Positions 1,471 to 5,734 of a stretch of DNA of 64,000 bases are shown here, one piece after another (position 1 is the first letter of the stretch; every line of letters starts with the position of its first letter). The translations under genes and the position numbers were made by a program. Source of the DNA: Leifsonia sp. EB41 (lineage in GTDB: Bacteria > Actinomycetota > Actinomycetes > Actinomycetales > Microbacteriaceae); the NCBI RefSeq assembly GCF_041262565.1, contig NZ_JBGCCJ010000001.1, positions 2,294,001 to 2,358,000 of the forward strand, in the 5' to 3' direction. The notes under the pieces were generated by a model. It did not search any database. It was given only the letters and a program-made list of their open reading frames with translations, and was not told the DNA's origin.

Positions 1471-2700
1471 ATGCCTGCTGGCCTGATCGCCCTCGCGCTG
1501 GGCGGCTTCGGCATCGGCCTCACCGAGTTCGTCATCGCCGGCCTGCTGCCCGAGGTGGCCGCCGACTTCCACGTCGACGCCGCCGCGGCCGGCTGGCTCA
1601 TCTCCGGCTACGCGCTCGCCGTCGCCGCCGGCGCGATCGGCCTCACCGCCGCCGTCACCCGCCTCCCGCGCAAGACCGTGCTGCTGGGATTGATGGTGCT
1701 GTTCATCCTCGGCAACGCGATCTCCGCCCTGGCGACCGACTACCCGACGATGCTCACCGGACGCCTCGTCGCCGCCCTCTGCCACGGCGCCTTCTTCGGC
1801 ATCGGCTCGGTCGTCGCCGCGAGCCTGGTCGACCCCAGCCGCAAGGCGCGGGCCATCGCCATCATGTTCACCGGTCTGACGGCCGCAAACGTCCTCGGCG
1901 TGCCGTTCGGGACGCTGCTCGGTCAGCAGTTCGGGTGGCGGTCGACGTTCTGGGCGATCACGGTCGTGGGAGTAGTGGCGTTGGCGGGTGTGGCGGTGCT
2001 GGTGCCGGGCGGCTCCGCGGCTTCCGGCCAGGACTCCGGTGCTGCCTCCGGTCTCCGCACCGAGCTCCGCGCCTTCCGCTCCGGCCAGCTCTGGCTCTCG
2101 CTGGCGGCGACCGTCCTCGGCTTCGGCGGGATGTTCGGCGCCTTCACCTACATCGCCTACACACTGACCGGGCTCTCGGGCTTCCCCGCGGCCGCGGTCC
2201 CGTGGCTGCTGATCCTGTTCGGGCTCGGGCTGTTCGCCGGGAACGCGGTCGGGGGGAGGTTCGCCGACCGCTCGATCGACGGGACGCTGCTCGTGGTGCT
2301 GGGCGTGCTCGCGGTGATCCTCGCCGCGTTCGCGCTGCTCGCCGCCCAACCGGTCGCCGCCGTCATCGCGCTCGTGCTGATGGGGGCGTTCGGCTTCGCG
2401 ACGGTCCCCGGCCTCCAGCTCCGCGTCCTCCGCTCGGCCGACGCCGCTCCGACGCTGGCCTCCGGCGCGAACATCGCCGCGTTCAATGTCGGAAACGCCC
2501 TCGGCGCCTGGCTGGGCGGCCTCACCATCGCGGCCGGGCTCGGCTACGCGTCGCCGCTGTGGGTCGGAGCGGCGATGACCGTCGCAGCCCTCGGCGTCGT
2601 CGCGGTCGCGGCGGCCGCCCGAAGCGGACGCTTCCGGTCCAGTAGACGGGGGGGTACACTCGCACCTGTCTCGAACGGAAGACCGACGATCAGGGGGTGA
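1471..2700 (+). CDS. MFS efflux transporter (DHA1, AraJ/YdhP-like)
   Basis: A 409-residue transporter with about 12 membrane segments. It starts MPAGLIALALGGFGIG, followed by LTEFVIAGLLPEVA, the typical first helix of DHA1 drug-proton antiporters. GRLVAALCHGAFFGIGS near residues 95-110 is typical of the AraJ/YdhP/PucI subgroup. AGGAG at 1461-1465 sits 5 nt before the ATG. The C-terminus ends in a basic soluble tail. The divergent MarR regulator with a palindromic operator suggests inducible export of a toxic small molecule. The substrate cannot be told from sequence. Confidence 0.85.
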   Translation: MPAGLIALALGGFGIGLTEFVIAGLLPEVAADFHVDAAAAGWLISGYALAVAAGAIGLTAAVTRLPRKTVLLGLMVLFILGNAISALATDYPTMLTGRLVAALCHGAFFGIGSVVAASLVDPSRKARAIAIMFTGLTAANVLGVPFGTLLGQQFGWRSTFWAITVVGVVALAGVAVLVPGGSAASGQDSGAASGLRTELRAFRSGQLWLSLAATVLGFGGMFGAFTYIAYTLTGLSGFPAAAVPWLLILFGLGLFAGNAVGGRFADRSIDGTLLVVLGVLAVILAAFALLAAQPVAAVIALVLMGAFGFATVPGLQLRVLRSADAAPTLASGANIAAFNVGNALGAWLGGLTIAAGLGYASPLWVGAAMTVAALGVVAVAAAARSGRFRSSRRGGTLAPVSNGRPTIRG

Positions 2701-2704
2701 TCGT

Positions 2705-3715
2705 GTGGTGGATGTGCCCGAAGTGCGGCGCTCCTCTCTCGCTCCCCTGCGGCTTCTGATCGGATCCCTCGTCCTCGGCGGCGGCATCGTCGCGCTGGGA
2801 CTGCTGTTCGGCGGCGGCACCGCGAACGCGGTCGATTCGCCGGCCCCCGGCCCGCTGGGCGGAGTGGCCGCGACTGTTGCGTCGGTGACGCCTGCGGCTC
2901 CGGCTCCCGTGCGGGAGGTGGCGGCGCAGGTCGTCCAGCCGGTGGCGAGCGTGGTGCAGCAGGTGGCCGCCGCCGCGCCGGTGGAGGCCGTGGTGAGTCC
3001 GGTCGCCCACGTGGCGGATCGGGTGGTGGCGGCGCCGGCGGAGCTGGTCGCTCCCGCCGCTGCGGCACCGGCCTCGGGTGGCGGGGCCTCGGGCGCTGGG
3101 TCCTCGACCTCCGGAGCGTCCGGGCAGGCCGCCGACACCACTGCTTCACTGGCGCCGAGCACCCTCGCACTGGTGAGAACTCTTGCCGCGCCGCTCACTC
3201 AGGTGACGTCGGTGCTCGCGAACCACCCCGTCGGCACGCTCACCGCGCCGATCGCGGCCGCCGCTGACGGCGTCCTCGCGGGCGTCGCGGGAGTCGTGGT
3301 GGGCACCGTCCGACCGGTTGCCGTTCCCGGAGTCGCTGGGCCCGCGGGCGAGCAGTCCGCCATCCCGTCGGTCGACGTCCAGCCGGCCGTCGCTCCTGTG
3401 TCTGCCGCTGCGGCGAGCACTGTGCGTGCCGATGCTCCCTACTCGCCGACCTTCGTGTCGACCGCCGGCGCGCCCTCCGCGCTGCTAGCTGACGCCCCGC
3501 GCGGCGACTCCGACGTGCCATCGCCGGGAACCCCTTCGGGTGTGCTCGGCACGAGCCCGGGCGCCGCCCAGGCTGGCGGTTACAGCTCAGGGTTCGCCAC
3601 GCTCGGAGGCAGCGCGGCCTGGCCCGCAACGGCCGTGAGTGGCCGCGCCGGCCTCCCGGCGGACGACGACCTCCCGACTTCACCCGGATTCGATCACGAC
3701 ATCAGCCCCGACTGA
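2705..3715 (+). CDS. Secreted Ala/Val/Pro-rich low-complexity protein
   Basis: A 336-residue protein with a basic N-terminus and a hydrophobic segment (LLIGSLVLGGGIVALGLLFG, residues about 17-36) ending before ANAVDSPAPG, which looks like a signal peptide. The mature part is almost wholly Ala, Val, Pro, Gly and Ser. A helical-looking region rich in VxxVVxPVAxVxxxV periodicity covers roughly residues 60-120 and a Ser/Gly/Pro region follows. It ends in an acidic DHDISPD tail with no sorting signal. It starts 4 nt after the MFS stop, with GGGGG upstream, and lies 91 nt before the chaplin-like gene, so the two surface proteins may be co-made. No known domain was recognised. Confidence 0.55.
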   Translation: MVDVPEVRRSSLAPLRLLIGSLVLGGGIVALGLLFGGGTANAVDSPAPGPLGGVAATVASVTPAAPAPVREVAAQVVQPVASVVQQVAAAAPVEAVVSPVAHVADRVVAAPAELVAPAAAAPASGGGASGAGSSTSGASGQAADTTASLAPSTLALVRTLAAPLTQVTSVLANHPVGTLTAPIAAAADGVLAGVAGVVVGTVRPVAVPGVAGPAGEQSAIPSVDVQPAVAPVSAAAASTVRADAPYSPTFVSTAGAPSALLADAPRGDSDVPSPGTPSGVLGTSPGAAQAGGYSSGFATLGGSAAWPATAVSGRAGLPADDDLPTSPGFDHDISPD

Positions 3716-3806
3716 GTGGGCCCCTTCTGCTGAGCGCATCCGCGCGACGCAGAAACGGACCCGAGCTCCCGACCGGGAGTCACGAACTCACTCGAAAGGC
3801 TGAACG

Positions 3807-5198
3807 ATGAACAAGTATGTCTCCAGAGGGTTGTGGTTCACCCTCTGCGTCGGCGGGCTCTGGCTCGCCGGCACCGCGGCCGCGAACGCCGCGGAACAAC
3901 CGATAACAACAGGATCCGGCGGCGTCGCATCCGGCGACCAGACTGCGATCGGCGTCACGGCGCCGGTGACCGTGACCGGAAACGGGATCGCCGTGCTCGG
4001 CGACTCCACGGCCTCCGGCACCTCCGCCGCTCCGGCAGCGCCTGCGCAGGCTCCCGTCGTCACCACCAGCGGACTCGGGTCCGTGGCCGGCGGCGACCAG
4101 GCCCTGCTCAGCGTGTCCGTGCCGGTCACGGTGTCCGGGAACGCGGCGAGTGCGGCGGGCGACGCGACCAGCGGCGCTGCGCCGGCGGCCGTGGCACCTG
4201 CGCCCGCGGCTGCCGCGCCCGAGCCTGCGACGACCTCGGGTTCGGGTGGTGTGCTGTCCGGCGCGCAGGCGCCGGTCGCCGCGGCGGTTCCGGTGAACGC
4301 GACCGGCAACTCGGTGGCGGTGTTGGGTGACGCGAGCAGCGGAGGTTCGGCCGCTCCGGCGTCCACCACCTCCACCGCTCCCGCCTCAGGTCTGACGACC
4401 TCAGGTTCCGATGGTGTGCTGTCGGGTGCTCAGGCGCCGGTCGCCGCGGCGGTTCCGGTGAACGCGACCGGCAACTCGGTGGCGGTGTTGGGTGACGCGA
4501 GTAGCGGCGGATCTTCGACGTCCGCTCCTGCGTCTGCTGCTGGCACTCCTTCCACCTCGGGCGCGAACGGTGTGCTGTCCGGGGCGCAGGTTCCGGTGGG
4601 CGCGGTGGCTCCTGTGACCGCTTCCGGCGACTCGGTGGCGGTGTTGGGTGACGCGAGCAGCACCGGTGGCGTGACCGCTCCTGCCACGTCGGGCGCGGTC
4701 ATGCCGGTCACGACGGGTGACGGCAGCATCCTCGGTGGCGCGCAGGTGCCGATCGGTGTCGCACTTCCGGTCACAGCGGGCGGCGACGCCGTGGCTGTCG
4801 GCGGGAATGCGACGACCGGCGCCGTGACCACTCCGGTCGCGTCCGGTACGACGATCACGGGGACGGGTCAGACCGACGGGACCGCAGGGCCCGGAGCCAC
4901 GACCGGGATCGTGACCGACCCGGCAACGGGGGCCTCCGCCGCACTGGGCTCGACGGCGCTCGGCGGAACCGCCCTGGGCTCGTCAGCGCTGGGCTCGTCA
5001 GCCCTGGGCTCGTCAGCGCTGGGTTCATCGGCGCTGGGTTCGACCGCGCTCGGATCCACCGGGCCGACCGCATCCGTGCTGGCGTCGACCGGTTCGGACG
5101 CGCTGACCTTCGGGTCGATCGCCGCACTGCTGGCGATGCTCGGAACCGTGCTGCTCTTCGGAGCGGCGAACAGGGAGCGCCGCCACCACACGCGGTGA
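3807..5198 (+). CDS. Chaplin-like repeat surface protein with LASTG sorting signal
   Basis: A 463-residue secreted protein. Residues 1-30 are a signal peptide ending in AANA. Six repeats of about 38 residues follow, each with the pattern GVLSGxQxPVxxxVPVxxTGNSVAVLGDA, starting near residues 33, 84, 141, 195, 245 and 295. This is the layout of chaplin domains (the hydrophobic aerial-surface proteins of Streptomyces), but without the two cysteines some chaplins carry. Residues 379-418 are eight ALGSx repeats. The end is LASTG (425-429), a hydrophobic stretch and a basic tail, a sortase signal of the LAXTG type used by class E sortases. It is probably wall-anchored and may form amyloid-like or hydrophobic surface material. 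The chaplin relationship rests on pattern, not a search. Confidence 0.65.
   Translation: MNKYVSRGLWFTLCVGGLWLAGTAAANAAEQPITTGSGGVASGDQTAIGVTAPVTVTGNGIAVLGDSTASGTSAAPAAPAQAPVVTTSGLGSVAGGDQALLSVSVPVTVSGNAASAAGDATSGAAPAAVAPAPAAAAPEPATTSGSGGVLSGAQAPVAAAVPVNATGNSVAVLGDASSGGSAAPASTTSTAPASGLTTSGSDGVLSGAQAPVAAAVPVNATGNSVAVLGDASSGGSSTSAPASAAGTPSTSGANGVLSGAQVPVGAVAPVTASGDSVAVLGDASSTGGVTAPATSGAVMPVTTGDGSILGGAQVPIGVALPVTAGGDAVAVGGNATTGAVTTPVASGTTITGTGQTDGTAGPGATTGIVTDPATGASAALGSTALGGTALGSSALGSSALGSSALGSSALGSTALGSTGPTASVLASTGSDALTFGSIAALLAMLGTVLLFGAANRERRHHTR
4266..4501 (+). repeat. Two identical 71-bp copies inside the chaplin-like gene
   Basis: Positions 4266-4336 and 4431-4501 are identical over 71 bases and are offset by 165 bp (55 codons). 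The other repeats of the gene match only at protein level. Such identity suggests recent duplication or gene conversion and makes repeat-number change by recombination possible. Confidence 0.9.
4941..5060 (+). repeat. Tandem 15-bp array coding for eight ALGSx pentapeptides
   Basis: Eight in-frame copies of a 15-bp unit (for example CTGGGCTCGTCAGCG) encode Ala-Leu-Gly-Ser/Gly-Ser/Thr. The middle copies are nearly identical in DNA. It forms the stalk between the repeats and the sorting signal. Slippage would change length by five residues without breaking the frame. Confidence 0.9.
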
Positions 5199-5278
5199 CG
5201 GAGGCTCTCGCACTACGCGACAGGGCTGGGTCGGTCGCAGGACCGGCCCGGCCCATCGCCGCGCGCACTCCGCACTCC

Positions 5279-5641
5279 TCAGAACCCGATCGGCCGCCCC
5301 GGTGTCAGCGGCGCCTCGCTTGCGTCGAACATCTCCCCGCAGTTGTATTCGGCCTCCCGCCGTTCGACCTCCGCGATCAGGGCCTTGTTCAGCATCTCGG
5401 ACCAGCTGCTGTCCTTCTCTTCGAAGGAGGTCGAGCGGTAGGCCGCGCGGGCGCGGTTGCGCAGCGTCTCGGACAGGTAGAACGTGACCGTCGTCCTCCG
5501 GGCCGTGGTCACGGTGCCGGCGACAGCGGTCGGCCGCTCGGGCGTCTCCGCCGGACGCTCATCCGCGAGCGGGCACTCCTCCTGCACGTCCAGGATGTCC
5601 TCCGCGTCCGGGATGGCCGGGGAGAGGTCTTGAAGAGTCAC
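5279..5641 (-). CDS. Ribbon-helix-helix DNA-binding protein, ParB/ParG-like
   Basis: A 120-residue protein from a GTG at 5639-5641, which has GAGG about 8 nt upstream; an ATG at 5684-5686 gives a 15-residue longer form with no ribosome site. Residues 1-50 are acidic and probably disordered. From about residue 51, RRTTVTFYLSETLRNRARAA gives the strand and first helix of a ribbon-helix-helix fold. SSWSEMLNKALIAEVERRE gives the second. The end has an EYNCGEMF...PGRPIGF tail. I recall similar tails in actinobacterial plasmid partition-type proteins; that is memory, not a search. No ParA partner is adjacent. It may be an orphan repressor. Confidence 0.6.
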   Translation of the reverse strand: MTLQDLSPAIPDAEDILDVQEECPLADERPAETPERPTAVAGTVTTARRTTVTFYLSETLRNRARAAYRSTSFEEKDSSWSEMLNKALIAEVERREAEYNCGEMFDASEAPLTPGRPIGF

Positions 5642-5734
5642 GAACGAACCTCGCAAAATACCGCATGTGTCATCTACCGGCAACATACTACGAGATGAGA
5701 TGGCAGGAGACCAGAGAAGGAGCAGACGCCTGTC

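Follow-up and report, generated by a model that had tools for sequence, protein, structure and literature searches.

A putative two-gene, sortase-anchored surface module with chaplin-core repeats in Leifsonia and other Microbacteriaceae

Genes and features of the locus

The window, a 64,000-nucleotide stretch of the genome of Leifsonia sp. EB41, contains two adjoining genes on the forward strand, which encode a chaplin-repeat protein of 463 amino acids with a predicted wall anchor and, upstream of it, a partner protein of 336 amino acids. A preliminary description of this DNA had placed the host in Microbacteriaceae, as was borne out, and at the level of genes its account was partly right about the repeat protein and overlooked the upstream partner, which is present in every locus examined. 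The following features were assigned.

2705..3715, + strand: partner gene, 336 aa, GTG start after GGGGGTGATC (linkage to the repeat gene, A2 profile)
2705..2830, + strand: probable signal peptide of the partner, residues 1-42, ending TANA (sequence, A2, helix in the model)
3662..3712, + strand: conserved C-terminal peptide of the partner, DDDLPTSPGFDHDISPD (column statistics, tail profile)
3716..3806, + strand: intergenic stretch of 91 nt with a CTCCCGACCGGGAG hairpin (sequence; fold z-score of only -2.0)
3807..5198, + strand: chaplin-repeat protein with predicted wall anchor, ATG start, 463 aa (ORF, Pfam, controls)
3807..3893, + strand: signal peptide, residues 1-29, MNKYVSRGLWFTLCVGGLWLAGTAAANAA (sequence; strong conservation across genera)
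3906..4007, + strand: chaplin-core repeat 1, residues 34-67 (PF03777 search, repeat parsing)
4062..4166, + strand: chaplin-core repeat 2, residues 86-120, the most degenerate (repeat parsing)
4230..4334, + strand: chaplin-core repeat 3, residues 142-176 (PF03777 search, repeat parsing)
4395..4499, + strand: chaplin-core repeat 4, residues 197-231, the best Pfam stretch (PF03777 search, repeat parsing)
4551..4655, + strand: chaplin-core repeat 5, residues 249-283 (repeat parsing)
4710..4811, + strand: chaplin-core repeat 6, residues 302-335 (repeat parsing)
4812..5078, + strand: low-complexity spacer with ALGSS/ALGST repeats, residues 336-424 (sequence; pLDDT ~40)
5079..5093, + strand: LASTG sorting signal, residues 425-429 (alignments A1 and A3)
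5094..5195, + strand: hydrophobic helix and basic tail ANRERRHHTR (sequence; helix 431-460 in the AlphaFold model)

No promoter or terminator consensus was found at 2400-5500, Rfam gave no match in the window, and comparison with plasmid records returned no match either. Just before the pair, at 1471-2700, lies a gene for an MFS transporter resembling Cmx/CmrA chloramphenicol exporters (343.6 bits, below the curated cut-off of 400), conserved within Leifsonia only, and on the minus strand at 5279-5686 a 135-aa protein with a match to CB_ParB_C (ParB C-terminal) is encoded, which is found beside the module within the genus.

The six repeats of the chaplin-repeat protein are 34-35 aa each, with GVLSGAQAPVAAAVPVNATGNSVAVLGDA exact in repeats 3 and 4 and degenerate in repeats 1, 2, 5 and 6. 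Parsing thus agreed with the six-repeat, cysteine-free form initially described, as the sole cysteine is residue 14 within the signal peptide and the mature protein is hence Cys-free. The mature protein also contains no Lys or Arg between the signal peptide and the anchor. The spacer preceding the anchor is Thr/Pro- or Asp/Pro-rich in relatives. An LAxTG-type wall anchor had likewise been proposed and was recovered: LASTG at 425-429, the helix at 431-460 and the terminal RRHHTR together fit a class E sortase substrate, L425, T428 and G429 are invariant in alignments A1 and A3, and the sorting signal is LAxTG in 68 and LPxTG in 6 of 80 named relatives. The AlphaFold model of this protein is of low confidence (pLDDT 57.6). 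Foldseek and VIA-align rows naming FapC and SufB/SufD were at noise level (FapC row with E=4.5 and probability 0) and were rejected as structural relatives, and PDB profile matches of A2 and A3 fell on Val/Pro-rich or Asp/Pro-rich stretches and were judged compositional.

Class E sortases are known to use LAxTG substrates and anchor ChpA-C in Streptomyces coelicolor (PMC5148588). The search for such an enzyme, suggested at the outset as a check that could have refuted the idea, located one in the host genome at G000:C1:2236354 (NF033747, 235.9 bits; cut-off 160). Each of 24 module carriers tested had a class E sortase scoring over the cut-off, and so did seven of eight genomes chosen as non-carriers, which means that the enzyme is not specific to the chaplin-repeat protein. 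A class C (pilin-type) sortase is encoded elsewhere in the genome, at G000:C1:1903446-1903823 (L004; 243.3 bits, cut-off 160).

Relation of the repeats to the chaplin domain

Chaplins undergo amyloid assembly at air-water interfaces and have a role in aerial growth; their domain has two conserved cysteines and three GN motifs 12-13 residues apart, and a chaplin system comprises several genes in one genome, some of them for short chaplins. PF03777 (ChpA-C) matched the 463-aa protein in four stretches with 49 bits and E=5.4e-13 (gathering score 21 bits), the match being partial and covering profile positions 2-45 of 57, and single repeats scored 22-27 bits as compared to about 100 for Streptomyces-type chaplins. 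This match was lost when the same protein was reversed, shuffled by residue (two controls) or shuffled in 5-mer blocks (one control); shuffled controls with the C-terminus left intact still gave a weak anchor match. Profile-profile comparison of the repeats with Streptomyces-type chaplin domains, taken from genomes that measure 7-10 Mb, hold 6-15 chaplin matches apiece and are so labelled from genome size, chaplin number and sequence, yielded a probability of 96.8%, E 2.5e-10 and 45% identity over 31 ungapped columns. Judged by these comparisons, the repeats are true relatives of the chaplin core. The early remark that they recall chaplins is thus upheld, and the profile search against the chaplin family, named beforehand as a possible refutation, found a match and did not overturn it.

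The ungapped alignment of 31 columns implies that the repeat covers the chaplin domain only over its first two thirds, keeping just the first ~33 of 45 residues, and the label "chaplin", sound as to homology with the core, was overstated to that extent. The consensus of the Streptomyces-type domain is SPGVLSGNxVQxPVxVPVNVCGNTVxVIGLLNPAFGNTC and that of the repeat is xxGVLSGTQxxxxVxxPVTVGGNAISVIGD, with a constrained core PV...GN[AS][IV]SV[IL]GD in 354 distinct examples, all of 34-36 aa. The first GN of the domain is mostly GTQ or GAQ in the repeats, the middle GN is retained as near-invariant G26 N27 (alignment A4) and the third is absent. None of the 354 distinct examples contains cysteine, the first chaplin cysteine being replaced by Gly or other residues and the second having been lost along with the third GN strand. 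ChpE is also without cysteine (PMC5618241), as is the second ChpB domain (PMC13251363), and the cysteine criterion for chaplins is thus not absolute. A relative at locus L143 stands closer to the classical domain, with seven stretches, 131 bits and a match reaching profile position 53. The sequence has the long-chaplin layout of a signal peptide, more than one chaplin domain and an LAxTG-helix-basic tail, with six repeats rather than two. No second chaplin gene was found in the host genome, since all three PF03777 matches fall in the 3807-5198 gene, although short divergent forms might score below the threshold.

Distribution and linkage of the two genes

Of 400 Microbacteriaceae genomes, 84, from 26 of the 85 genera, gave a PF03777 match, nearly always in long frames, and what had been described from one genome is a family-wide protein, whose reading frame and architecture are conserved in many genera. 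Named relatives come from Leifsonia, Agromyces, Agrococcus, Microbacterium, Cryobacterium, Agreia, Plantibacter, Mycetocola, Labedella, Schumannella, Homoserinibacter, Protaetiibacter and Janibacter. Among the 80 named loci, 74 partner tails were recognised by pattern and four more by eye (ending NPD, TPG, SRPD or CPD), and two loci were cut by a contig end; in all 78 evaluable loci, covering 13 genera, the partner adjoins the repeat gene upstream on the same strand, with a gap of about 77-141 nt in most relatives. The partner was present as well in 21 of 21 further loci with a repeat gene, each time with a signal peptide, a Val/Pro-rich middle and a DDxLPxSPxFDTDxSPD-type C-terminus, and the pair is retained at both loci of one assembly (L073/L081). 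Other flanking genes are shared no further than a genus or a set of closely related species. The linkage is not a matter of general synteny, because beyond that range the gene shared by BLAST is the repeat protein. Co-occurrence was judged by reading locus by locus; the raw tallies (84 chaplin and 117 partner genomes) were not used for it because few candidates were scored per genome and single repeats lie near the threshold. Two equal-length loci of one Agrococcus assembly (L048 and L051), which agree in their match statistics and lie on a single contig in opposite orientation, represent either a duplication or an assembly artefact.

The repeat protein behind the partner appears to be exchangeable. 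When the downstream gene was inspected at 16 partner loci lacking a significant ChpA-C match, ten had a chaplin-like protein after all, five (L125, L126, L130, L131 and L134) had a secreted, sortase-anchored repeat protein of another kind, its signal peptide similar and its repeats different and often acidic, and one (L135) was a draft contig without a clear downstream frame. The non-chaplin proteins, located at 1421-3022 in L125, 1288-2607 in L126, 1429-3378 in L134 and on the reverse strand in L130 and L131, have quite different repeats, acidic and VDADV/VVD-rich, and those of L126 and L134 contain collagen-like stretches. Elsewhere in the order, in other families, the pair with chaplin repeats was found at L141 and L144-L146, the repeat protein also at L140, and the partner with non-chaplin repeat proteins at L148-L152. 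At L148, L149 and L150, all from another family, the C-terminus of the partner reads ARPGFAPD or TRPGFAPD, and a single SVTRPGFVLDG or SVSRPGFVLDG motif lies close to the end of the protein downstream, so that a terminal motif may be common to both.

The partner protein

The partner consists of a probable signal peptide, a Val/Ala/Pro-rich middle and a C-terminal peptide of the type DDxLPxSPxFDTDxSPD. Two Ala near its signal cleavage are invariant in alignment A2, and the signal region forms one helix in the AlphaFold model, with pLDDT of about 93 at residues 21-30 in a model otherwise of low confidence (pLDDT 54.4). No family match near the cut-off was found in Pfam, NCBIfam or PHROG. The A2 whole-partner profile identified a single copy in the host genome (E 3.2e-56) and a match in 117 of 400 genomes of the family, with weaker matches in other families of the order; the partner was found in none of 11 genomes of other families, seven of which are chaplin-rich. 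The tail is conserved: across 56 distinct tails many columns carry 2-4 bits, as compared to some 1 bit or below in most of the columns immediately preceding the tail, the last two columns being fixed by selection because the tail-counting regex required those residues. A tail profile picked out one protein per carrier genome (E <= 9e-7 in eight of nine carriers and 0.097 for the remaining one); three genomes lacking the module gave no significant match. The occurrence in one protein per genome excludes the tail as a general sorting signal. Leifsonia L136, L137 and L138 carry a second partner paralogue, which is shorter, ends PPGEHDVSPG or PPGDHDVSPG and precedes a large LuxR-type regulator-like frame and not an anchored protein.

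Proposed mechanism and alternative explanations

Taken together, these findings favour, with a probability of about 0.55, a two-gene surface-coat module that sortase E anchors and whose repeats are exchangeable. The genes at 2705-3715 and 3807-5198 would constitute one exported surface module, both products leaving the cell by the Sec route, and the class E sortase would process the repeat protein at LASTG and join it, presumably covalently, to peptidoglycan. The six chaplin-core repeats would then project from the wall on flexible linkers, each probably folded into a small beta unit, and stacking of repeats within a chain or between several, possibly as amyloid, may give a beta-rich, largely uncharged layer, which as a coat could alter wetting, adhesion or cell-cell contact. 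The partner, in view of its helical Val/Pro-rich segments, its disordered stretch and a C-terminal peptide carried by no other protein, is most likely dedicated to this layer as an assembly or retention factor that contacts the repeat protein and is recognised through its tail, even if gene linkage by itself is no proof of physical interaction between the two and the promoter search revealed none that they share. As a speculative and rather doubtful extension, the partner may found an unnamed family of surface-assembly partners, recognised via DDxLPxSPxFDTDxSPD and building wall-anchored coats from exchangeable repeat proteins throughout Micrococcales, with chaplin repeats as one cargo and the aerial coat of Streptomyces as a specialised offshoot of an older wall-surface use.

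Other explanations differ in what the repeats would do and where they came from. A hydrated surface brush or adhesin stalk, made of flexible, poorly charged to acidic spacers with no ordered fibre or surfactant activity, is a possible though not a favoured reading, in which the repeats would screen the wall or present it to surfaces and the Ser/Thr-rich linkers would perhaps be O-glycosylated. The low AlphaFold confidence, the Ala/Ser/Thr/Pro linkers and the exchange of the chaplin repeats for quite unlike ones, acidic or otherwise, in combination with the same partner and anchor are in line with it, and the acidic ectodomains with almost no Lys/Arg (median of 41 Asp/Glu per relative) suit such a brush no less well than they do a hydrophobic coat. 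The lack of cysteines and of the third GN strand, which matter in chaplins, also counts against the coat. However, tight constraint of the repeat in length and sequence would be needless for a mere spacer.

At the other extreme, a true chaplin with the Streptomyces job, raising hyphae or cell groups into the air under an amyloid, rodlet-like coat, is very unlikely. Leifsonia is not known to form aerial hyphae, and the single chaplin gene, the cysteine-free repeats lacking the third GN motif and the failure to find the partner in the Streptomyces-type genomes searched speak against this role, although core, LAxTG anchor and class E sortase are the same as for ChpA-C (PMC5148588). Equally little probability attaches to low-complexity Gly/Ala/Val repeats that arose by chance or convergence without chaplin descent. 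The biased composition and the modest scores of single repeats could be so explained, but the loss of the PF03777 match in shuffled and reversed controls, the ungapped profile alignment and the intermediate form L143 run counter to it, and this origin is already disfavoured on the sequence comparisons.

Significance and comparison with known systems

Chaplins are regarded as a hallmark of aerial growth in filamentous actinobacteria. A short, Cys-free, multi-repeat form in a large part of Microbacteriaceae, tied to an uncharacterised partner, would detach the chaplin core from aerial hyphae and offer rod-shaped, tractable hosts for asking what this core does alone, and the C-terminal peptide of the partner would be a testable handle on the assembly of such layers. 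The different use of the chaplin module suggested for this host at the outset is plausible, and the evidence suggests that actinobacteria, most of them non-filamentous, have an as yet undescribed surface layer made of two proteins, of which the strictly linked, previously unnamed partner is the most interesting part. No description of the multi-repeat Microbacteriaceae form or of its partner was found in the literature searched, subscription journals being mostly outside its scope; matches for "chaplin" in Microbacteriaceae papers were author names.

By analogy, the imperfect repeats on linkers together with a dedicated neighbour gene resemble CsgA/CsgB, FapC/FapB and TasA/TapA, systems with no shown sequence relation to the Leifsonia pair. 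CwpA/CwpB of Actinoplanes missouriensis are SrtE-dependent, hydrophobic and largely disordered wall proteins with a role in colony spread, and in these respects similar, but their authors conclude that they have no chaplin domains, and the organism is filamentous (PMC13251363). A chaplin relative outside filamentous actinobacteria was likewise noted by Chandra and Chater, 2013 in the non-sporulating, non-filamentous Arthrobacter chlorophenolicus, with attachment proposed as the older role (PMC4255298); that passing mention, without repeats, anchor, partner or wider distribution, is set apart by description only. The long chaplins ChpA-ChpC of Streptomyces (PF03777; SrtE1/SrtE2-anchored) share with the Leifsonia protein the signal peptide, chaplin-type repeats, flexible spacer, LAxTG-helix-basic tail and a genomic class E sortase. 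In contrast to their two domains, the Leifsonia protein has six repeats, each of which stops after strand two without the NPAFGNTC part, and its genome combines one chaplin gene, with no short chaplins found, with a fixed upstream partner.
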